Virus record (IMG/VR): IMGVR_UViG_3300042294_001510
Span: 1-22,228 of that record
Direction: 5' to 3' (one strand)
Length of the DNA stretch: 22,228 bases
DNA from: a virus
The notes under the pieces are model-generated. The model searched no databases. It saw nothing but the letters and a program-made list of their open reading frames with translations, and was not told where the DNA came from. The stretch's first letter is position 1. Each line of letters starts with the position of its first letter. This document shows, piece after piece, positions 1 to 20,330 of the stretch. A program made the position numbers and the translations under genes.

Positions 1-528
1 CAGGCGGAGAGCCTGCGCGCATCGTTCGGGCGACGCCACGAAGGTCTTCGTAACATGCACAAGATCGCGGTTCTAACGGGCGGCGCGGACTTCAAGACGC
101 TCTCGTTCAAGCCGTCGGATCTTGCGATCGTGGAGCACATGGAAGCAGGCACGCAAGCGATCGCCCGACTGTATGGCGTACCGCTGCATCTGCTTCAGCT
201 ACCGGGCGGCAACTCGTCATACAACAGTCTGGAGATCGTCTCACGAGAGTGGCTGATGCTTGGGTTGGGCAGCCTCATCTCACGCCTTGAGGCTGGACTC
301 CAGCGGCTCATCGTCGGCGACACCACGTTCATCAAGTTCAACGTAGACAGCATGCTGCGACCGCTGACCAAGGAACGCTTCGACGCGTACGCCGTGGCTT
401 TGAACAACGGCTTCCTGAGCCTCAACGAAGTGCGCACTTTGGAAGACCGTCCACCAGTCGGGCCAGAGGGCGACGCCTTCCGCCAGCCACTCAACATCGG
501 CACCGTCGGGCAAGAGCCACAGCCGTAA
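1..528 (+). CDS. Phage portal protein, C-terminal part (5' end outside window)
   Basis: The frame is open from base 1 to TAA at 526-528, so 175 residues are visible and the gene starts upstream of the window. The segment has the look of the HK97/SPP1-type portal: an ESLRASFGRRHEGLRN helix, a short beta region (KIAVLTGGADFKTLSF), then 'GVPLHLLQLPGGNSSYNSLE', followed by long helices with ERFDAYAVALNNGFLSLNEVR. In the family this part forms the crown and wing around the dodecameric DNA channel at one capsid vertex. An ATG at 55 lies in the middle of conserved sequence and is not a believable start. The TAA overlaps the next ATG by one base, so translation is probably coupled to the protease gene. 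Identification is by motif and by its place directly before protease and capsid genes. Confidence 0.9.
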   Translation, partial: QAESLRASFGRRHEGLRNMHKIAVLTGGADFKTLSFKPSDLAIVEHMEAGTQAIARLYGVPLHLLQLPGGNSSYNSLEIVSREWLMLGLGSLISRLEAGLQRLIVGDTTFIKFNVDSMLRPLTKERFDAYAVALNNGFLSLNEVRTLEDRPPVGPEGDAFRQPLNIGTVGQEPQP

Positions 529-2024
529 TGTCATACGTCATCGCTGATCTGGACGGCACTCTCGTGCTTGACAACGATCAGCCAAACCAGCCGCTGATTG
601 ACGCGCTGAATGATCAGGTCATGTCTGGTGACGTGGAGATCATCATCGTCAGCGCCCGCAAGATCGACCGCCTGACAGAGACTCGCGCATGGCTGCAGGA
701 GTACGGCGTGGCTGGCGTGGAGCAGGTGCATCTCAACGACTTCGAAGGCAGCGCCTTCGCCACAGGGCTTCCGTTCAAGACGTACAAGTATGGACTGCTC
801 GTAGATGAGTACGGCGCTGATGAGATCGCCTATGCCGTAGACAACGACGCCGACGTGCGCGCTATGGCTGAGGGTTTGGGTATCAAGGCGCTGAGCCCAG
901 AGCAGGCGGTGAGCGAAGAGCGCGCCATCGTGAGCGTCCCCAACTACATCGCAGCTGCAGCCAAGGCGGGGCTGGAGGCGTATGAGGGCGGGCTCGGAGG
1001 CGACGGCTTGCAGGATGCGACGATCCGTGAGGCACGTCAGCTCGCAGAGGGCCGCGTAGATGATGAGAAGGTGGCGCGCATGGCTCCATGGATTCGCCGC
1101 CATCGCGGCGACTGGGAGGGCGTACCGCAGAACAGCGACCCCGAGCATCCTGACTTCCCAGCACCGGGAGCCGTGGCTGCACTGCTCTGGGGCGTGAATC
1201 CCGTAGACACAAACGGCGCTGATCGCGTGCTGGCTTGGGCAGATAGTATCAACGACACCACTCAGCAAGAGGAGAACTCCATGGCACGAGAGCACGAAAC
1301 GCGCGCACTACCGCTCGGCGACTTCACCGTTACCGAAGGCGAAGACGGGCAGAAGACCTTCACGGGATACGCAGCCGTCTTCGGCGCGGAGTCTCAGGGG
1401 CTGCCGTTCATCGAGCGCATCGCCAACGGTGCGTTCAGCCGTGCGATCAAGCAGGCGGAGCAGGGGCGCCGCGTCATCAAGTTCCTACACGGTCACGATG
1501 AGAGCCGCATGCTGGCGACTACCGCGAGCGGGCGCCTCACGCTGACTGAGGATAACGTCGGGCTCAAGGTGGAGGCGCGACTTGATCCATCAGATCCAGA
1601 CGCCGCAGCCGTAATCAGCAAGCTCACCAACGAAGCCAAAGCCATGGGCATGTCGTTCGGGTTCACCGTGCCAAAGAACGGGCAGCAGTGGCACGAAGAC
1701 GGCAGCCGCACGCTGACTGAGATTGGGCTGCTCGAAGTCTCCACGCTCTCGGGCCATACGCCTGCATACCCTGCAACGCTCGGGCTGACTGCCGTGCGCA
1801 AGATCGCGCCGAACAAGATCGGCGTGGACGGCGATGCTCTCGTTGAGACTCTTGAAGCCGTCAAGGCTGGCAACACTCTTGACGCTGATCAGACGGCGCT
1901 GCTCGATGCAGTGCGCGCCAAGTTGGGCGCAGCACCCGAGCCCGTCATTGAAGCAACTGCCCCGGCTGGTGAGCACCACACGATTGTGGCAGCCCGCCTG
2001 AAGTTGGAGCAGTTGAAGGGATAA
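528..2024 (+). CDS. HAD-phosphatase / prohead serine protease fusion (498 aa)
   Basis: Three parts are visible. Residues 1-125 look like a HAD hydrolase of the polynucleotide 3'-phosphatase type: DLDGT at 7-11, VSARK at 41-45 and AVDNDADV near 103-110. Residues about 160-242 form a compact helical region (IREARQLAEGRVDDEKVARM, WIRRHRGDW, ALLWGVNP) that I associate with phage proteins around portal and protease genes. Residues 252-498 are an HK97-type prohead protease (peptidase U35/S78 group) with a likely triad: His in HGHD (321-324), Ser376 in MSFGF and Glu403 in LLEVS. The protease trims the capsid scaffold during maturation; a role for the HAD part is unknown. The ATG overlaps the portal TAA. 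A second in-frame start at 1281 would release the protease alone. The last 70 residues may be a scaffold-like tail. Confidence 0.85.
   Translation: MSYVIADLDGTLVLDNDQPNQPLIDALNDQVMSGDVEIIIVSARKIDRLTETRAWLQEYGVAGVEQVHLNDFEGSAFATGLPFKTYKYGLLVDEYGADEIAYAVDNDADVRAMAEGLGIKALSPEQAVSEERAIVSVPNYIAAAAKAGLEAYEGGLGGDGLQDATIREARQLAEGRVDDEKVARMAPWIRRHRGDWEGVPQNSDPEHPDFPAPGAVAALLWGVNPVDTNGADRVLAWADSINDTTQQEENSMAREHETRALPLGDFTVTEGEDGQKTFTGYAAVFGAESQGLPFIERIANGAFSRAIKQAEQGRRVIKFLHGHDESRMLATTASGRLTLTEDNVGLKVEARLDPSDPDAAAVISKLTNEAKAMGMSFGFTVPKNGQQWHEDGSRTLTEIGLLEVSTLSGHTPAYPATLGLTAVRKIAPNKIGVDGDALVETLEAVKAGNTLDADQTALLDAVRAKLGAAPEPVIEATAPAGEHHTIVAARLKLEQLKG
1281..2024 (+). CDS. Internal in-frame start: prohead protease alone (247 aa)
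   Basis: Met252 of the fusion gene (ATG at 1281) is preceded by AGAGGAGAACTCC, giving an AGAGGAG ribosome site with 6 bases to the ATG. This site is better than the one before the full-length start at 528. The product would begin MAREHETRALPLGDF, exactly where HK97-type proteases usually begin, and would hold all three putative catalytic residues. I infer that the gene makes two proteins, the 498-aa fusion and a separate 247-aa protease, as in other phage head genes with nested starts. The ribosome site and frame are seen directly; production of both forms is inference. Confidence 0.6.
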   Translation: MAREHETRALPLGDFTVTEGEDGQKTFTGYAAVFGAESQGLPFIERIANGAFSRAIKQAEQGRRVIKFLHGHDESRMLATTASGRLTLTEDNVGLKVEARLDPSDPDAAAVISKLTNEAKAMGMSFGFTVPKNGQQWHEDGSRTLTEIGLLEVSTLSGHTPAYPATLGLTAVRKIAPNKIGVDGDALVETLEAVKAGNTLDADQTALLDAVRAKLGAAPEPVIEATAPAGEHHTIVAARLKLEQLKG

Positions 2025-2130: not shown

Positions 2131-3264
2131 ATGGACAGCATCAAGAATCTGGCTGAGAAGCGCGCCGCGCTGTTGACTGATGCTTCGGGCATCGTTGCAG
2201 ATGCAGCAGCCAAGGGCGAAGCCCTTTCGGCTGAGGCTCAGGCTCGTTTTGACGCCCTTACTTCGGAGGCTTCAGTTGTTGCTTCCGCCATCACTTCAGA
2301 GAAGATCGCTGCTGAGGCCCGTGCCGCAGCCGACGCTGCTCGCTCGGAGAAGGCAGTTGCCTTCGCCCCAGCGGCTGAGTCGACCCGTGACCTGTCCGCT
2401 GAGCTTCGCCGAATCGCCCGAGACGGCGGCACGGTTGAGCTTCGTGACATCACGAAGGCGACCTTCACGCAGGCAGTTGAGCAGGGTGACCGCTTCTGGA
2501 TCACCGCTGGTCAGGTCAACCCGTTCGTTGATCCTGCCGTTGTTTCCGTCATCCAGCTCGAGAAGGGCAACGTTCTTGCTCTTCCACGAACGACCGCTCT
2601 CGGCACTGCAGCCGCAGTTTCCGAAGGCTCGTCGATCGGTGAGTCGGACGGCACGAACTCGTCCCTCAGCCTGACGCCAGTGAAGTACGCTTCACTTCTT
2701 CAGGTCGGAATCGAGACTGTTCAGGATCAGATGTTCGACGTAGCCTCATGGGCCACGGAGAAATTGGCTGCCGAGCTATCAGTAGCACATGGGGCAGTTG
2801 CTGCTCCTGCTGTTGCTGCAGCTGCGACGGTTGGCGTTCAGGGTGCGGCAGTTGCCCCAACCTACGCGAACCTTGTCAGCCTCATCTATTCGGTGAAGCA
2901 GCAGTATCGTCGCGCAGCGAAGCGCGGCTTCCTTATGAACGACACCACGCTTGGTGCCGTTATGGGCTTGGTTGACGGCGCGAGCCGACCAATCTTCGTG
3001 CCGGGCGATCAGAACCGCCCAGACACGATCCTTGGCTTCCCAGTCTATTCAGCCGCTCTCGTCGACAACGGTGACGAAGCTCTCTCGATCGCTTTCGGCG
3101 ATCTTGGAAGCGTGTACACTGCCATCGCTGGGGCGCCTGCAATCGAAGCTGACCGATCGTTCGCGTTCGGAACAGGGCTCGTGTCTTATCGCGGAATCCT
3201 CCGCGGTGCGACCGGGCTCATTGACCCTAACGCCGTGAAGACGTTCAAGGGCGCGAACGTCTAA
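2131..3264 (+). CDS. Major capsid protein, HK97 fold (377 aa)
   Basis: The first 70 residues are Ala/Glu-rich and helical, typical of the scaffold-like delta domain that the prohead protease removes. The rest follows the HK97-fold pattern: WITAGQVNPFVDPAVVSV, a long N-arm/E-loop region with LALPRTTALGTAAAVSEG, then GFLMNDTTL, ILGFPVYSA, IAFGDLGSVY and a C-terminal beta region. Length is normal for the family. ATG at 2131 is chosen because AAGGAG sits just before it; the in-frame ATG at 2116 contains this site in its own codons and has no good site of its own. Codon use leans to T-ending codons (GCT, GTT, CTT) more than in neighbouring genes, as expected for the most expressed phage protein. 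A strong hairpin follows the stop. Confidence 0.93.
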   Translation: MDSIKNLAEKRAALLTDASGIVADAAAKGEALSAEAQARFDALTSEASVVASAITSEKIAAEARAAADAARSEKAVAFAPAAESTRDLSAELRRIARDGGTVELRDITKATFTQAVEQGDRFWITAGQVNPFVDPAVVSVIQLEKGNVLALPRTTALGTAAAVSEGSSIGESDGTNSSLSLTPVKYASLLQVGIETVQDQMFDVASWATEKLAAELSVAHGAVAAPAVAAAATVGVQGAAVAPTYANLVSLIYSVKQQYRRAAKRGFLMNDTTLGAVMGLVDGASRPIFVPGDQNRPDTILGFPVYSAALVDNGDEALSIAFGDLGSVYTAIAGAPAIEADRSFAFGTGLVSYRGILRGATGLIDPNAVKTFKGANV

Positions 3265-4435: not shown

Positions 4436-4872
4436 TGAACGACCTCACGATTCACCAAGCCGTAGCGGCTCGCCTAGTCGCAGCCACGAAGCCAGCGGGG
4501 TACACGCTCCGAGCAGCGCACGCCACCCCGCCCGACAATCTCGCCGTGGTGCCTGCAGCCGTCTGCATCCCCGGCGGCGACACCATCAGCTACGGCACGG
4601 GCGGGAGCCGCACCACCCTGCTCACGGTCAGCGTCGTAATCTATCTGCAGGAGCAGGCTGACATGGCTCGCAAGTATGCCGACCTGCTCACGTGGCGCAC
4701 GTGGCTCCGTGGGGTGTTCGACGGGCAGGTGCAACTAAACACAGCCGACGTGGCTCAGGCAATCGTCACAAGCACTACAATCGGCACAGATACTTGGAGC
4801 GACGTGATCTACCTAACGATCACGGCTGAGCTGCAGGTGAGTATTCTTGAGGGAGTAAACGTCAGTGCCTGA
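4435..4872 (+). CDS. Probable tail terminator / head-tail joining protein (145 aa)
   Basis: A mixed alpha/beta protein opening with a helix (MNDLTIHQAVAARLVAAT) followed by strands with a YTLRAAH, GGDTISYG and TLLTVSVVIYLQ pattern, and ending in a long strand (DVIYLTITAELQVSIL). Position between the connector and the tail tube gene is where the tail terminator or neck stopper is normally encoded. That assignment rests on gene order and fold impression more than on a named motif. It overlaps the connector stop by one base and the next GTG start by eight bases. Confidence 0.6.
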   Translation: MNDLTIHQAVAARLVAATKPAGYTLRAAHATPPDNLAVVPAAVCIPGGDTISYGTGGSRTTLLTVSVVIYLQEQADMARKYADLLTWRTWLRGVFDGQVQLNTADVAQAIVTSTTIGTDTWSDVIYLTITAELQVSILEGVNVSA

Positions 4873-5059
4873 TACGCTTCGCACGCTTCTGGTCAAGGTT
4901 GTTCAGCCCCGCGCTGAGGGCAACCCCTACCTCCCAGCGTCTGACGACGTTGTCGAACTGGACGCCGCAGTTGCCACATCGCTGGCAGCCAGCGGGCTCG
5001 TTGAAATCGTGGACAATAAGCCCAACGCCAAGACGGCGAAATCAGAGAAGGAGTCATAA
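4865..5059 (+). CDS. Small protein before tail tube gene, unknown (64 aa)
   Basis: A GTG start at 4865 with GAGGGAG about 10 bases upstream, overlapping the previous gene by 8 bases. The sequence is LRTLLVKVVQPRAEG, then [20 protein letters not shown] and a charged Lys-rich tail (KTAKSEKES). It repeats the design of the 76-aa protein at 3343: strand, loop, strand-helix with a final 'sGxA/V', basic tail. No function is recognised; the position suggests a neck or tail accessory protein. Confidence 0.65.
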   Translation: MPDTLRTLLVKVVQPRAEGNPYLPASDDVVELDAAVATSLAASGLVEIVDNKPNAKTAKSEKES

Positions 5060-5062
5060 GTC

Positions 5063-6073
5063 ATGCCAACGCTAGGCGCTAAGTCTTTCACGAAGGTCGT
5101 CGTCAAGAGCGAGAGCGGCTATGGCACGCCTGCAAGCTTCAACGACGCCAACGGCGAACTCCTTCACACGGACATCGTCGGCATCGTTGACCCGGGCGTG
5201 ACCGTTGACTTGGCTGATGATAAGAGCGTCGGCATCCGCCCACGCCGCGTCGCCGCTTCAGCAACCATCACCGCCAAGGCTCCAGTCGTCAGCTTCGGCG
5301 AAGCGCCTGCGTCACTCCGCACGCTGCCAATCATCTTCGATTCACTCGCCACCATCACCCCAACGGGCTCGGGCCCGTACACGTGGGCGTACGCTCCAAG
5401 CCAGACGGACGTTGACACGCTTGAGACCTACTCGCTCTACGTCACGGACGGCGTGCAGAAGTTCATCATCGACGGCTGCGTGCCAACGGAGATCACCCTC
5501 AGCGCCGATCAGTCGGGCCTTCTGCAGATGGGCACCACGTGGGCTGGACGCGCACTGAGCACCACCACGGACACCAGCACCGCTGCCTTCGCCGCGCAGT
5601 ACTTCATCCCGGGGCGACTCTTCGGGCTGAAGACGCACGGCTCCATGATCACTGCGAAGACGGGCACGGGCACCGCCTACTCCAGCTTCATCACGAACTG
5701 GAGCCTCACCCTTATGCCGGGCGCTGCCCCGCTGCAGGTGTTGAACGGCTCCACCACGAACGTGAACGCTGGCGGCGTCGCCTACACGGGCGCCCTTGAC
5801 GGCACCCTTGAGTTGACCATCGCATCGAACAGCGCCGCCACCAGCGCCTTCCCAGTCGGCGACATCGGCACCACGAAGTTCGTTCAGGTGCAGGGACTTG
5901 ACGCCAACGGCTACGGCTTCACCGCCAACATCTGCGGCGTCGTTGAGAACGTCAGCGTCATCGGCTCAGAGTCCGACGGGTTGATCCTCAACACCGTGAC
6001 CCTGCAGCTCGCCAGCAACGGCACGAACTCGATTCTCTGCTGGGTGGATTCACCACTCTCGGCGCGCCCATAA
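5063..6073 (+). CDS. Major tail tube protein (336 aa)
   Basis: A beta-rich protein with a typical tube-protein opening (MPTLGAKSFTKVVVKSESGYGTP) and repeated strand pairs, including VPTEITLSADQSGLLQMGTTW, a pattern common in phage tube proteins where one domain carries 'i..g.t..sG.l....sf.g'. It lies directly before the tail chaperone genes, as in most siphoviruses. It is larger than minimal tube proteins (about 150-250 aa), so an extra surface domain is possible. ATG at 5063 is preceded by AAGGAG 9 bases upstream. It should polymerise as stacked hexamers around the tape measure. Confidence 0.78.
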   Translation: MPTLGAKSFTKVVVKSESGYGTPASFNDANGELLHTDIVGIVDPGVTVDLADDKSVGIRPRRVAASATITAKAPVVSFGEAPASLRTLPIIFDSLATITPTGSGPYTWAYAPSQTDVDTLETYSLYVTDGVQKFIIDGCVPTEITLSADQSGLLQMGTTWAGRALSTTTDTSTAAFAAQYFIPGRLFGLKTHGSMITAKTGTGTAYSSFITNWSLTLMPGAAPLQVLNGSTTNVNAGGVAYTGALDGTLELTIASNSAATSAFPVGDIGTTKFVQVQGLDANGYGFTANICGVVENVSVIGSESDGLILNTVTLQLASNGTNSILCWVDSPLSARP

Positions 6074-14262: not shown

Positions 14263-14493
14263 ATGGACGGACTCGAAGAGCTCAGGGCGCTGAGCAAGCC
14301 ACGCAAGGGGCCACCTTGCGGGATGACGACCGTGCACCTTGAGGGCAAGGACTGGGAGACGCTGCACGCAGGGCTGGCTGATCCCGCGATCACCGCCAAG
14401 GCGCTCAGCTCATGGCTCGACAAGCGCGGCTTCACCGTGAGCTTCTGGACAATCGGAAGGCACCGCCGGGGCGAGTGCGCGTGCAACTCATGA
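14263..14493 (+). CDS. Small helix-turn-helix-like protein (76 aa)
   Basis: ATG at 14263 has GGAGG 7 bases upstream; an earlier in-frame ATG at 14128 would overlap the endolysin and has no ribosome site. The sequence VHLEGKDWETLHAGLADPAI followed by TAKALSSWLDKRGFTVSFWT and IGRHRRGECAC fits a short DNA-binding helix-turn-helix found in actinophages, where the end 'RHRRGeCrC' is recurrent. It may be a terminase-small-subunit-like or regulatory protein. It overlaps the metallophosphoesterase by 4 bases (ATGA), suggesting joint action. Confidence 0.62.
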   Translation: MDGLEELRALSKPRKGPPCGMTTVHLEGKDWETLHAGLADPAITAKALSSWLDKRGFTVSFWTIGRHRRGECACNS

Positions 14494-15515
14494 CAGACGA
14501 ACTGCAGATGGAGCAGCGACTCCATGAAGTGACTGAGGCTCACAAGCGTGCACTCCGCCAACTGGCGAAGCGTGACGCTGCCCGTGAGGAGTTAGTGGCA
14601 GCCGTCTATCAGGCGGCAAAAGACGCAGCCCTGAGCATCACGATCCCGCCCGTGCCAGCGCCGAAGGCGTCGGGCAAAAAAAGCGACGGCGAGACGCTGG
14701 TGATTCTGCTCGGAGACTGGCAGTTGGGGAAGTACTCGGAGACGTACAGCATTGACGTAGCGAAGGCGCGCATCGCGCTGCTCGCCACGAAGGTGCAGCG
14801 CCTCATCGAGCTGCACGGCGTCCCCGTCAAGGAGATCGCCTGCGTGCTGCTGGGTGACTTCGTAGAGTCGGACGGCAACATCTTCCCGAGCCAAGCCTAT
14901 GAGGTTGAGCGCGGCGGGTTGTACGTGCAGATCTTCGAAGGTGCTGGGATGCTCGCGCAGTTCGTGCGGGCCATGGCAGCACTCGCTCCGAAGGTCACGG
15001 TGCGTGGTGCGATCGGCAACCACGGGCGACTCGGACGCTACGGCGACCACTCCAACGAGAGCAACGCTGACGCGATTCTTTATCGCATCGCAGCCGAGCA
15101 CCTGAAGGGCGAGAAGCGCGTTGACTGGAAAGAGTCGCTCACACTGGGTGGGCGTCACTGGTACGACATGCTTGAGCTGCCGGGTGGGAAGACTGCCATG
15201 CTGGTGCACGGTGATCAGTTCAAGGGCGGCGCCTTCGGGCTCCCGTTCTACGCGATCGCCAAGCGCGCGCAGGGCTGGAACCTATCAGTGCAGCCGTTCG
15301 ACTTTCTCTTCTACGGGCACTGGCACACGCCGAGCCGACTGGTGCTGAGCGACGGCGCTCACACCTGCTGGGGCAACGCCAGCATCGAGAGCAGCAACCG
15401 CTACGCGCAAGAGTGGCTGGCAGCGTCTGGCACCCCTGCGCAATGGGCGCTCTTCTTCGGCAAGGAGGGCCCGACCGCCGAGTATCTGGTGAGACTGGAT
15501 GCCGCGAAAGCCTGA
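14490..15515 (+). CDS. Calcineurin-like metallophosphoesterase (341 aa)
   Basis: ATG at 14490 overlaps the previous TGA. Residues 1-48 form a charged helix, probably a coiled coil. The metal-binding motifs follow in order: GDWQLGK (75-81, with Gln where many members have His), LLGDFVESD (121-129), GNHGR (176-180), VHGD (239-242) and GHWH (276-279). Enzymes of this fold hydrolyse phosphodiester bonds with two metal ions; relatives in phages include Mre11/SbcD-type nucleases. The substrate cannot be told from the sequence. Pairing with a small DNA-binding protein suggests a nucleic-acid substrate. An in-frame codon further upstream exists but would lie within the previous gene. Confidence 0.85.
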   Translation: MTDELQMEQRLHEVTEAHKRALRQLAKRDAAREELVAAVYQAAKDAALSITIPPVPAPKASGKKSDGETLVILLGDWQLGKYSETYSIDVAKARIALLATKVQRLIELHGVPVKEIACVLLGDFVESDGNIFPSQAYEVERGGLYVQIFEGAGMLAQFVRAMAALAPKVTVRGAIGNHGRLGRYGDHSNESNADAILYRIAAEHLKGEKRVDWKESLTLGGRHWYDMLELPGGKTAMLVHGDQFKGGAFGLPFYAIAKRAQGWNLSVQPFDFLFYGHWHTPSRLVLSDGAHTCWGNASIESSNRYAQEWLAASGTPAQWALFFGKEGPTAEYLVRLDAAKA

Positions 15516-16782: not shown

Positions 16783-16991
16783 CCAAGTGGAAGTGCACCA
16801 TCTGCTGGCGACAGATGCAGACAGATACCAAGCCGGGGCTGATCGAGCGCCTCTGCCCCGACTGCAAAGTCAGCCACTGGGCGAAGGTGGTGGCGATCTA
16901 TCAGACAGGCGATGCCGATCGGCTGGCTGAGGCGAAGACAAAACTGCGCGCCGCGCAGGCAGCACTGAAGAAAGAGCAGGTGATCCAGTGA
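16779..16991 (+). CDS. Zinc-ribbon / helical small protein (70 aa)
   Basis: GTG at 16779 has a strong AAGGAGGGG site and overlaps the previous stop (GTGA). CTIC (6-9) and CPDC (26-29) form a zinc ribbon. The second half is a helix rich in Ala and Lys (DADRLAEAKTKLRAAQAALK) that could be a coiled coil. It overlaps the exonuclease gene by 4 bases, so it may be a partner of the recombination enzymes, which is inference from position only. Confidence 0.68.
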   Translation: MTKWKCTICWRQMQTDTKPGLIERLCPDCKVSHWAKVVAIYQTGDADRLAEAKTKLRAAQAALKKEQVIQ

Positions 16992-17935
16992 GCAAGCAGT
17001 ACGAGTTCGTGAAGGCACCGCAGCGCAGCCCTGAGTGGCTGGAGCTGCGACGTCAGGGGCTGGGAGCCTCCGACATGGCGGCAGTGATGGGCGTCAGCCC
17101 GTACAAGACGCCGTACCAACTGTGGGCTGAGAAGACGGGAGCGACGCCGCCCCAGAAGGTCGGCGCGGCTGCCCAGCGCGGCGTGATCCTAGAGGATGCC
17201 GTCGGGCGCTACTACGAAGAGGAGCGCGGCGTGAAGCTGCGCAAGTCGAACGGGATCATCCGACTCAAGCAGCACCCGCGCATCATGGCGTCGCTGGATC
17301 GCACGATCGTCGGCGAGCCCAAGGGCATCGTGGAGATTAAAACCTCCGCCAGCCCGCGCTGGAGCATGTGGCCCGTCCCCCCGGAGGTAGTCATCCAGAC
17401 TCACGTTCAGATGGGGATTCTCGGGGTGGAGTGGTGCGACGTGGTCGCCCTACTGGGCGGGCTCGTCTTCAAGATCGAGCGCGTGCAGTTTGATCCTGCG
17501 CTCTGGGCTGAGATCCAGCGCAGCGCGATGGCTTTCTTGGAGGCGGTGGATACGAATACCCCGCCAAAACTGGAGGCGCTGGACGCTCAGGCATACGCAC
17601 TCGCCACGCCTCAGGCGTCTGATGACTTCGCGCAGGCGACGTCTGACCTAGAGCGCGTCTACGCCCAGCTGCGAGAGGTCAACACGGAACTCCACTTCGT
17701 AGAGGAGAAGAAGGGCGCGCTGGAGATCATCCTCAAGGAGGCGATCGGCGAGAAGGCGGGGCTGGCTGGCAACGGCTGGACGGTGTACTGGAAGCAGGCA
17801 CGCCCGTCGCAGGTCACTGACTGGAAGATGGTGGCGCAGGCGGCTGGCGCTCTGCCTTCGGTGATCACTACGTACACGGATACGAAACCCGGGAGCCGCC
17901 GCTTCATCATCAACGATGGAGGGCTCCATGATTGA
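16988..17935 (+). CDS. YqaJ-family exonuclease (lambda exonuclease-like) (315 aa)
   Basis: GTG at 16988 (GTGA overlap). The N-terminus RSPEWLELRRQGLGASDMAA is the YqaJ signature, followed by RGVILEDAVGRYYEEE (Glu69), ASLDRTI (Asp104), GIVEIKTS with Glu116-Ile-Lys118, and VIQTHVQMGI with Gln137/Gln141. These match the PD-(D/E)XK active site of lambda-type exonuclease. Residues about 210-250 look helical or coiled (LERVYAQLREVNTELHFVEE), and the last 60 residues form a strand-rich end found in longer members. The enzyme trims one strand from DNA ends to give single strands for annealing; the Rad52-like gene at 18583 is the expected partner. Confidence 0.87.
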   Translation: MSKQYEFVKAPQRSPEWLELRRQGLGASDMAAVMGVSPYKTPYQLWAEKTGATPPQKVGAAAQRGVILEDAVGRYYEEERGVKLRKSNGIIRLKQHPRIMASLDRTIVGEPKGIVEIKTSASPRWSMWPVPPEVVIQTHVQMGILGVEWCDVVALLGGLVFKIERVQFDPALWAEIQRSAMAFLEAVDTNTPPKLEALDAQAYALATPQASDDFAQATSDLERVYAQLREVNTELHFVEEKKGALEIILKEAIGEKAGLAGNGWTVYWKQARPSQVTDWKMVAQAAGALPSVITTYTDTKPGSRRFIINDGGLHD

Positions 17936-18428: not shown

Positions 18429-18586
18429 AAAAGGCAGACGCCAACGACTGGCTGGTGATCACTGGACTCAACGGCAAGGAGATCCCGGGGCTGAAGGATG
18501 CGCTACTGCGCAAGGTCGCCCGAGAGGATCAGGCTACGAAGCAGCCCGCCAAGGTGGCGCGCAAGAAGAAGGAGGGCTCACGATGA
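18425..18586 (+). CDS. Small basic protein between recombination genes (53 aa)
   Basis: ATG at 18425 overlaps the previous stop by 4 bases, with AAGGAGG just upstream, and its own TGA overlaps the next ATG. The first part (ANDWLVITGLNGKEIPGLKD) could fold as strand and helix, and the second is strongly basic (KQPAKVARKKKEGSR), suitable for DNA or RNA contact. No match is recognised. Confidence 0.68.
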   Translation: MKKADANDWLVITGLNGKEIPGLKDALLRKVAREDQATKQPAKVARKKKEGSR

Positions 18587-19281
18587 GCAAGCACCAAGAC
18601 ATTCTCGCCGCGCTGTCGGCACCCTTTCCGCCTGAGGTCATCAGGCACCGCGTCGGAGCGGGCGGCAAAGATCTGACGTGGGTTGACGCCCGCACGGTCG
18701 CAGCTCGACTTGACGAAGTGCTCGGGGTCAACGGCTGGGATTTCGCTGTGGAGCCCGTCGGGGATACCAGCACGGTGGTGGGCATCCTCACCGCCCGCTT
18801 CCCAGACGGCACCGTGGCACGTCGCCAAGACTTCGGGTATGAGACTGGCGGCTCAGGGGAGTCTCTCAAGGAGGCAGCCTCAGACGCCCTCAGGCGCTGT
18901 GCGTCACTCTTCGGGGTGGCTCGGTACCTGTATGGCGGGGATCGCCCCGCAGCGGGGCGCGCAGCCCTCCCTCCGTTGAAGGCTATGAGCATCCCTCAGA
19001 CACCAGCGCCCAGCGCGGGCCATGACACGGTGGTGCTGAAGGCAGCCATGGAGATCTTCGGCGCTGACACATGCCCAGATCACGGGCAGGCGTGGACGAA
19101 GAAGCCGGGGGGCGTATCGAAGGCGACGGGCAAGGCGTATCAGCCCTTCTGGGCTTGCTCGGGGCGCACAGATGGTCAGTTCTGCAAGCGGAAGCCAGCC
19201 ATGGACTGGATCGCCAAGCAAAATGCGCCACTGGGCGAGCCTGTGCGGGCTGAGGAAGATCTCAGCGACTTGCCGTTCTAG
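18583..19281 (+). CDS. Rad52-family single-strand annealing protein (232 aa)
   Basis: ATG at 18583, AAGGAGG 6-12 bases upstream. Residues 1-120 match Rad52/Rad22-type phage annealing proteins: RHRVGAGGKDLTWVDARTVA, then LDEVLGVNGWDF, and the helix ESLKEAASDALRRCASLFGV ending ARYLYGG. Residues 120-150 are a Pro/Ala linker. Residues 150-215 hold Cys164, His167, Cys192 and Cys201, possibly a zinc site. The last nine residues, EEDLSDLPF, resemble the acidic tip of bacterial SSB (ending I/L-P-F), known to bind many replication and repair proteins. With the YqaJ exonuclease it forms a two-component recombination system. A hairpin follows the stop. Confidence 0.85.
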   Translation: MSKHQDILAALSAPFPPEVIRHRVGAGGKDLTWVDARTVAARLDEVLGVNGWDFAVEPVGDTSTVVGILTARFPDGTVARRQDFGYETGGSGESLKEAASDALRRCASLFGVARYLYGGDRPAAGRAALPPLKAMSIPQTPAPSAGHDTVVLKAAMEIFGADTCPDHGQAWTKKPGGVSKATGKAYQPFWACSGRTDGQFCKRKPAMDWIAKQNAPLGEPVRAEEDLSDLPF

Positions 19282-19338: not shown

Positions 19339-19773
19339 ATGGGGCTATGGATCAAGTGGGATGCGAACGCCCACAAGGATGACAAGATCGCCGCACTGAC
19401 AGACACTGAGTTCAGGGCGTTCGTCACGGCGATCGCTGAGGCGAAGCAGCTGCGGAGCGGCGGCATCTTCAAGAGCCGGGAGCACCTCAAGGTATGCATC
19501 GGGAGCCGCTTCGGGAAGGCGATCAGCGGGCTCATCACCAAGGGCCTGCTCGGAGTAGATCAGGCGGGGATCGTGATGATTACGGGCTGGCATCGGTATC
19601 AGATCGACCCGACATCAACCCGACGTCAGGCTGCGTTCACCGCTCGCCGACGCTCAGAAACGGGGGGGTTGACGGAAGGCGGACGTTCAAGAGAGAGAGC
19701 AGAGAAGAGTGAGAGAGAGAACCCCCCTTCCCCCCTGCAGGCGGGAGAGATCCTGCGGAGGATCGTCGGATGA
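19339..19773 (+). CDS. Replication-initiation-like protein with winged-helix N-terminus (144 aa)
   Basis: ATG at 19339, GGAGG 7-11 bases upstream. Residues 1-95 follow phage replisome-organiser N-terminal domains: KWDANAHKDDKIAALTDTEF, RAFVTAIAEAKQL with GGIFKSREHL, then ISGLITKGLL and GWHRYQIDPT. Such proteins bind the origin and bring in the helicase or its loader. Residues 96-144 are basic and low in complexity (RRQAAFTARRRSETGG, then RERAEKSEREN). The gene contains a purine/pyrimidine tract that might be an origin. The protein is short and lacks a visible helicase-binding domain. Its end overlaps the kinase gene by 4 bases. Confidence 0.62.
   Translation: MGLWIKWDANAHKDDKIAALTDTEFRAFVTAIAEAKQLRSGGIFKSREHLKVCIGSRFGKAISGLITKGLLGVDQAGIVMITGWHRYQIDPTSTRRQAAFTARRRSETGGLTEGGRSRERAEKSERENPPSPLQAGEILRRIVG
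19689..19736 (+). other. Purine-rich / pyrimidine-rich tract inside the replication gene
   Basis: 33 bases that are all A or G except C19700 and T19710 (19689-19721) are followed at once by a 15-base all C/T run (19722-19736). The tract encodes a low-complexity part of the replication-like protein. Some phages keep their origin inside the initiator gene, so this is a candidate unwinding or binding element, on compositional grounds only. Confidence 0.35.
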
Positions 19774-20330
19774 GGAACGTGGCATTTATCGGCAAGGCAG
19801 GAACTGGGAAGACGACCCTGAGCCAGATGCTCTCGGAGCATCACGGCTATCAGGTCACCAGCATCGCAGCACCTATCCGTGAGGTAGCAGTGCTCGCCTA
19901 CGGCAAGTTCGACAAGGGGATGAGATACCCGCAGCAGACGCTGGGCCTCTCCCGACTGGTGACTGGGCGTGAGCTGCTGCAGGAGATCGGCGCTGCACTG
20001 AGGGAGATGGACTCACTCTTCTGGATGAGGGTATGGCTCCGCCGTACCAAGCAGGGCGCTGATGACGGGGTGATCGGGAGCGTCACCTTCGTGGTGGATG
20101 ACGTCAGGCTAGACGCTGAGCGCGCCTTCATCAGGGCATGGTATCCAGAGACGCTCTTCGTGCGGCTGGTACGCCCCCCGGAGGGTGATCTCCAGCCGTG
20201 GCAGCATGACGTCACTGAGCGTCAGGCTGGGGAGATGGAGGCTGAGGTGGTTCTAGACACCAGCGCCCTCACCCCGCTAGAGTGCGTAGCAGCCGTTCTA
20301 GAGGCGGCACGTATGGAGGTACAGGCATGA
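19770..20330 (+). CDS. Deoxynucleoside monophosphate kinase-like P-loop protein (186 aa)
   Basis: A Walker A motif GKAGTGKTT (8-16) follows the first strand (RNVAFI). VTGRELLQEIGAALREMDSL and FWMRVWL match the central region of phage dNMP kinases ('gr.llq.lG...r..d..~W'), and VTFVVDDVRLDAERAFIR (Asp110-Asp111) gives the Walker B-like strand. LFVRLVRPP and the C-terminal helices complete the fold. The enzyme would phosphorylate dNMPs to supply phage DNA synthesis. A dephospho-CoA-kinase-like substrate cannot be excluded from sequence alone. ATG overlaps the previous stop (ATGA). Confidence 0.75.
   Translation: MRNVAFIGKAGTGKTTLSQMLSEHHGYQVTSIAAPIREVAVLAYGKFDKGMRYPQQTLGLSRLVTGRELLQEIGAALREMDSLFWMRVWLRRTKQGADDGVIGSVTFVVDDVRLDAERAFIRAWYPETLFVRLVRPPEGDLQPWQHDVTERQAGEMEAEVVLDTSALTPLECVAAVLEAARMEVQA

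Follow-up and report, generated by a model that had tools for sequence, protein, structure and literature searches.

What is a phosphatase domain doing in the gene of a capsid maturation protease? The question is raised by a single ORF encoding 498 aa (positions 528-2024, + strand), typical of a family of uncultured phages, in the window, by which we mean the whole stretch of DNA analysed, a virus record of 22,228 bases. The ORF lies between the 3' part of a portal gene (1-528, + strand; PF04860, E 1.6e-33; phrog_12, portal, E 4.9e-36) and the gene of an HK97-type major capsid protein (2131-3264, + strand; TIGR01554, E 5.9e-31), and its ATG overlaps the portal stop codon (TAATG). The mechanical ORF of the capsid gene begins at 2116; a Shine-Dalgarno (SD) sequence AAGGAG with a duplex energy of -9.0 indicates the ATG at 2131 as its likely start. 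Farther along, the window carries a recombination block with an exonuclease (14412-15515), a RecE-like exonuclease (16988-17935) and an Erf/Rad52-like annealing protein (18583-19281), followed by a probable deoxynucleoside monophosphate kinase (19770-20330; phrog_139, E 3.9e-22).

A first-pass annotation read the product, from amino to carboxyl terminus, as a HAD phosphatase, a small helical domain (MID hereafter) and a complete HK97-type protease. These domain assignments hold; the same annotation overlooked an internal start with the bare-protease product that it predicts, and could not reveal that some relatives are devoid of MID.

Three domains in one reading frame

The protease is complete. 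Peptidase_S78 (PF04586, E 2.7e-29, 102.9 bits against a cut-off of 21) covers residues 270-417 of 498, and the NCBIfam model TIGR01543 (E 1.4e-24, 86.8 bits against 59) also exceeds its curated cut-off. H323 and S376, which we take to fill the His and Ser roles of S78 proteases, are present in 142/142 relatives and E403 in 141/142. No other S78 protease is recognised within the 22-kb record. By its scores above the family cut-offs, its place between portal and capsid protein and its conserved His and Ser, the protein resembles an HK97-type prohead protease, but it differs by about 250 extra N-terminal residues that include an enzyme-like domain and by the nested start.

The HAD phosphatase domain occupies residues 1-131 (528-920, + strand). 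Its fold, initially proposed from short motifs, was recovered by profile and by structure: phrog_415, named polynucleotide kinase, matches residues 1-160 with E 3.2e-11, and the AlphaFold2 model of residues 1-132 (pLDDT 92.6) has HAD phosphatases as its best PDB matches. Foldseek against the PDB returned lipin/Pah, PNKP and Nir2 mixed at similar E-values. With VIA-align, run on 1000 chains, the top eight are all Pnkp (Z 15.9-16.6, rmsd 1.9-2.1 over 117-119 residues), followed by Nir2 (Z 14.5-14.9) and lipin/Pah (Z 13.6-14.1). A profile of 18 HAD domains from both groups of fusions gives the bacterial Pnkp1 (4xrp, E 8.3e-8) and T4 Pnkp (5uj0, E 6.5e-4). Matches of the gene product to Pfam HAD models all stay under their cut-offs, phmmer with the whole protein against the PDB yields chance matches only, and tblastn with the HAD domain alone against the phage collection gives no match at E 0.1. 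A hit of the HAD part to intimin, far under the cut-off, was set aside as chance.

The motifs DLDGT (7-11), VSARK (41-45) and VDND (104-107) are positioned as first described. Among the key residues D7, D9, T11, S42, R44, K84, D105 and R111, conservation is complete for D9, T11, S42 and R44 (139/139 sequences with letters there for each), for K84 (141/141) and for D105 and R111 (142/142). The nucleophile D7 is found in 135/139, with G in three contigs and E in one. The likeness to T4 Pnkp and bacterial Pnkp1, their rank as top structural and profile matches aside, resides in D-x-D-G-T, S-x-R, the Lys and the first motif-IV Asp. The differences are the fusion to a protease, the lack of a kinase domain (Pfam, PHROG and NCBIfam profiles have no such match outside the HAD phosphatase stretch) and motif IV itself, where the second Asp of both Pnkp proteins corresponds to N106 in the window's D105-N106-D107. 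Among the 142 relatives, position 106 carries N 120 times, D 19 times and S three times; for position 107 the counts are 129 D and 13 S. Because the Asp-Asp pair of motif IV is absent, we name the domain PNKP-like and not PNKP 3'-phosphatase. A dN/dS of about 0.19 indicates that it is under purifying selection (medians of 0.189 for HAD, 0.166 for MID and 0.085 for the protease). Sequence and model together argue that it is probably a PNKP-like phosphatase with an altered motif IV, active in most members of the family.

One clade of three (L206, L208 and L154; 3300020183_001568, 3300021092_001577 and 3300020578_002385) combines the D7 to G change with additional modules that separate HAD from MID; the phosphatase of this clade looks dead.

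Such a composite gene could be an assembly or sequencing join of two genes, with close relatives keeping them apart. The relatives have the same fusion. In the first scan of viral contigs, which kept 80 of 217 relatives, 79/80 loci match from the beginning of HAD (residue 1 or 4) and continue into the protease, the exception (L040) starting at a contig end. With three additional scans (80 of 266, 334 and 191 relatives) 146 sequences were assembled, and 142 distinct coding sequences were left after removal of contained ones. These come from loci L001-L246 with HAD and protease on the + strand, to the exclusion of L081, L247-L326 and ORFs in which one of the two domains is missing; a further scan kept 80 of 322 relatives. 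All 142 hold the two domains in a single frame. There are thus at least 142 distinct fusions, forming 23 clusters at 85% identity, the most divergent about 53% identical to the window; the counts are of related sequences, not of independent events, and cluster counts are given for that reason. A BFVD structure search adds viral proteins named Prohead protease that have a HAD match, namely A0A6J5R419 (501 aa, 55% identity), A0A6J5S5M9, A0A6J5NAI8, A0A6J5MQJ8 and A0A6J7WPK9, showing that such sequences are already in databases, unremarked as far as literature searches show. With 142 distinct sequences from many metagenomes and these database entries, an artificial join can be virtually dismissed and we rejected it: the fusion is, by sequence comparison, real and old.

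Contig L099 has a piece of a protease on its other strand as well (4587-5147, - strand), probably a sign of chimeric assembly. A search for relatives in contigs of sequenced bacteria, where a prophage would have been a clue to the host, returned 299 pattern matches, none of them a relative. Among named phages the nearest is phiPsal1, from the actinobacterium Pontimonas; the Pontimonas genome paper announces that it leaves this phage aside (PMC6106888). In literature searches, read at the level of listings and opening lines of abstracts, neither a HAD-prohead protease fusion nor an internal start in a gene of this kind is described; a paper where both "prohead protease" and "haloacid dehalogenase" occur names them separately in the extracts at hand (PMC5099504).

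A probable second start within the gene

Just before the protease, the SD sequence AAGAGGAG (1267-1274, + strand; duplex energy with the anti-SD of -9.4 in the window) precedes an ATG at residue 252 (1281-1283, + strand), in the order GAGGAG, six bases, ATG (1269-1283). Initiation at this ATG would yield the protease alone, a predicted product of 247 aa (1281-2024, + strand) that PF04586 matches with E 6.7e-30 on the stretch alone. The site has ATG, GTG or TTG (112, 20 and 8 sequences) in 140/142 relatives and 21/23 clusters, so that the residue encoded may be M, V or L. Among the 108 sequences of the first set, V is always GTG there (14/14, against 32% elsewhere) and L always TTG (7/7, against 15.8%). 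The five SD codons (-6 to -2) behave likewise: their Arg is encoded by AGG in 99/102 cases against 61/4191 elsewhere, or 15/17 against 11/701 when cluster representatives are counted. Both representatives without AGG are those with the internal start lost, which have TTT and TTC in its place (clusters L156 and L167). The same two clusters carry an insert with AGG-GAA and ATG codons farther upstream, making a shifted start possible.

The duplex energy with the anti-SD has a median of -9.0 over the 140 relatives, versus -2.8 for 3341 other in-frame start codons; it is -7.3 for 112 upstream starts and ranges from -8.6 to -10.8 for the adjoining genes of the window. The upstream starts of the fusion are GTG or TTG in 99/112. 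In the window the upstream SD is weak (-2.1), and this phage may therefore make little of the fusion. The mere presence of an SD followed by a start codon is not unique to the junction, residue 185 having such a pair in 80/102 sequences by a loose criterion; the count is thus not decisive alone and we relied on the codon and energy tests.

The codon pattern points to selection on the RNA and not on the protein, its simplest cause being a second start for the 247-aa protease. We regard the internal start in itself as highly probable on these comparisons, and both the fusion and the bare protease are very likely made from the gene. One could argue that the fusion is the sole product and that the SD and start are the relic of a once separate protease gene, the site being located exactly where the start of such a gene would be. 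It is kept, however, in clusters that are 53-97% identical to the window, with the rare AGG held and the start codons interchanged, and a relic would have decayed over such divergence; we consider this reading very improbable. A second start in the gene has precedents in lambda C/Nu3 and Mu I/Z, where an internal in-frame start of a head-protease gene gives a shorter C-terminal protein. The short form is the scaffold in those phages, whereas here it would be the protease, with the long form bearing the extra domains. Whatever the function of the N-terminal domains, the conserved internal start means that two proteins per gene are to be expected when this family is annotated or studied by mass spectrometry.

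The helical domain and exchange of modules

MID (residues 135-245; 930-1262, + strand) is modelled mostly as helices (pLDDT 95.4), in agreement with its first description as a small helical domain. It has a weak match to phrog_2859 and no PDB match worth naming, the best Z being 4.1 among 104 chains aligned. The same domain is present in predicted prohead proteases and in XkdF-type, portal-like and ParB-named proteins of phages, and also in a protein of Actinomycetia phage DSL-LC01 annotated as capsid maturation protease and a Nodularia minor head protein. It is also N-terminal to the protease-capsid fusions of Synechococcus S-CBS1 and Roseobacter CRP-831. By analogy with the placement of the HK97 scaffold domain, we infer that the N-terminus of a protease-capsid fusion would face the procapsid interior, which makes MID probably an interior domain. 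The S-CBS1 and CRP-831 proteins (L180 and L179; 836 and 974 aa) are single polypeptides that join MID, a weak S78 protease and the capsid protein.

Six of the 142 relatives do without MID (L083, L084, L085, L101, L112 and L115), a linker or a remnant of MID joining HAD to the protease. They make up two separate subgroups, L112 and L115 on one side and L083-L085 with L101 on the other. HAD, protease and the internal start with its SD are retained in them.

The reverse combination is found in Pontimonas phage phiPsal1 (MG835450, AUV61415), whose prohead protease shares MID and protease with the window (39.7% identity over query residues 165-466) but has other N-terminal modules instead of HAD. 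In the phiPsal1-type set of 81 ORFs (80 from viral contigs plus phiPsal1), 76 begin with such modules, to which we assigned by eye names like Cys-rich and Tudor-like, and five have a HAD module (L271, L272, L299, L300 and L321); a second background has thus combined HAD with proteases of this sort. This group also differs in having no clearly conserved internal start: several members carry a Lys codon at the position, and when the search around the junction is made wide, every sequence yields an SD-plus-start of some kind.

The wide occurrence of MID in head proteins, including its place ahead of protease-capsid fusions, would suit an interpretation where HAD and MID are parts for assembly, acting in portal or scaffold targeting, in dosage or in space-filling, and are destroyed or expelled at maturation, the phosphatase chemistry being irrelevant. 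The dN/dS of HAD, about twice that of the protease, the clade without nucleophile and N106 in 120 of 142 relatives point the same way. The invariance of D9, T11, S42, R44, K84, D105 and R111 speaks against it, as does the loss of MID from six relatives that retain HAD. We find this interpretation unlikely.

E-x-R sites and a possible cargo of the head

Candidate sites for self-cleavage are found on both sides of MID. The HAD-MID linker has E-E-R132/A133 (915-926, + strand), with R132 in 138/142 relatives, a gap in the other 4, and E-x-R in 103/132 among the sequences listed for this position. E257-T-R259/A260 (1296-1307, + strand) precedes the protease domain, E257 and R259 being present in 142/142. 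The capsid protein has an E-x-R/D (2437-2448, + strand) that is probably its maturation cleavage site: behind the helical region at the N-terminus, 140/150 distinct capsid sequences have E-x-R at the same position of the alignment, the 150 including the S-CBS1 protease-capsid fusion, which is poorly aligned there. In the distinct junctions of the phiPsal1 type E-x-R precedes MID in 39/43, the Cys-rich module in 12/18 and the Tudor-like module in 13/22, against a background of 1.6% of positions, and the junctions without E-x-R all end in R. The recurrence of E-x-R before modules and at the probable capsid cleavage site suggests self-processing. The candidate site in the capsid protein would be cleaved by the S78 protease, and one protease cutting all E-x-R sites is the natural guess from their shared pattern. 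Against self-processing, E-x-R also opens the protease domain, whose fold may need it, so that E257-R259 may simply belong to that fold, and the linkers are Glu-rich. The passages of PMC11445458 consulted on cleavage sites were of no help.

Encapsidation of the HK97 protease was reportedly described by Duda and colleagues in 2013. In D3, procapsids that have yet to mature contain about 90 copies of the protease, whose band has disappeared once maturation is over (PMC12749128). We favour the following sequence of events. The upstream start would give the 498-aa HAD-MID-protease and the internal start the bare 247-aa protease, a step strongly supported by the comparison of relatives. Both products would enter the procapsid interior by virtue of the protease, as the biology of HK97 and D3 suggests. 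There the protease could cut the capsid protein and its own linkers at E-x-R, which would free the PNKP-like phosphatase and MID within the head. More speculatively, the phosphatase would be a cargo travelling with the DNA, to act, within the head or once a new cell is infected, on nucleotides or on phosphate-bearing ends of nucleic acids. The internal start would set the ratio of fusion to protease, so that a cargo could be taken along while part of the protease stays free of it; by analogy, we think that the fusion represents a minor form of the protease, one that bears the cargo. We give this chain of events, taken as a whole, about even chances. N106 at motif IV counts against it, as do the three contigs with G and the one with E in place of D7; moreover, since the D3 protease is gone after maturation, the freed domains could leave the head too.

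PNKP-type phosphatases remove the 3'-phosphate at ends. A phosphatase of this type could be tied to the protease to be placed around the portal, cleaning 3' ends or nucleotides during packaging with no delivery to a new host, a role that would be in line with the gene's location between portal and capsid protein and with the presence in the window of a probable dNMP kinase and of recombination nucleases. The timing fits poorly, however, because the protease does its work ahead of packaging and, in D3, is no longer seen once the procapsid has matured, and the gene has no kinase or ligase partner; we hold this role to be distinctly unlikely.

The first-pass annotation had proposed for the phosphatase the processing of DNA ends at the portal, a ride into the capsid or a function as scaffold piece. 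The ride into the capsid fits best, given the variable N-terminal modules, the occurrence of MID in head proteins and the analogy with phage polyvalent proteins, whose peptidases are C-terminal. Polyvalent proteins combine unrelated domains in one polypeptide encoded in the head-gene region; in the passages at hand, their assemblin-like peptidase is described as always C-terminal and thought to process proteins in virion assembly, and the proteins themselves are presumed to be packaged and then injected (Iyer et al. 2017, PMC5512222). The fusion resembles them in having disparate domains in one polypeptide encoded among virion genes and a C-terminal peptidase (S78, residues 270-417 of 498). 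It differs in that its peptidase is the only recognised prohead protease of the record, and also by the internal start, none being seen in those passages of PMC5512222. The main text of that paper has no mention of a HAD domain, haloacid, phosphatase or PNKP. The best reading by this analogy is that of a small cargo of the polyvalent type that would enter the head on the protease.

If so, the head protease would be a loading vehicle: its entry into the procapsid would import an enzyme and its own cleavage would free it, with one start codon fixing the ratio of fusion to protease. This would be a simple route of enzyme loading for phage heads without a T4-like targeting peptide. More tentatively, the protease gene could be considered a self-processing cargo polyprotein with dosage control, its swappable modules (phosphatase, Cys-rich, Tudor-like, MID and others) entering the head on a minor form of the protease, being freed at E-x-R sites like those of the capsid protein and being delivered to the next host, and its internal start supplying the bare protease.

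Two further proteins with MID have a composite architecture. The minor head protein of Nodularia phage kac65v151 (L181, 3413-5014) combines Tudor, MID and inorganic pyrophosphatase domains in a similar style of assembly. In Limnohabitans phage DC31 (L182, 1329-2123) MID precedes an XkdF-type protease, and the protease region is also matched by PHROGs named DNA methyltransferase and RNA ligase, which hints at more enzyme-protease fusions.
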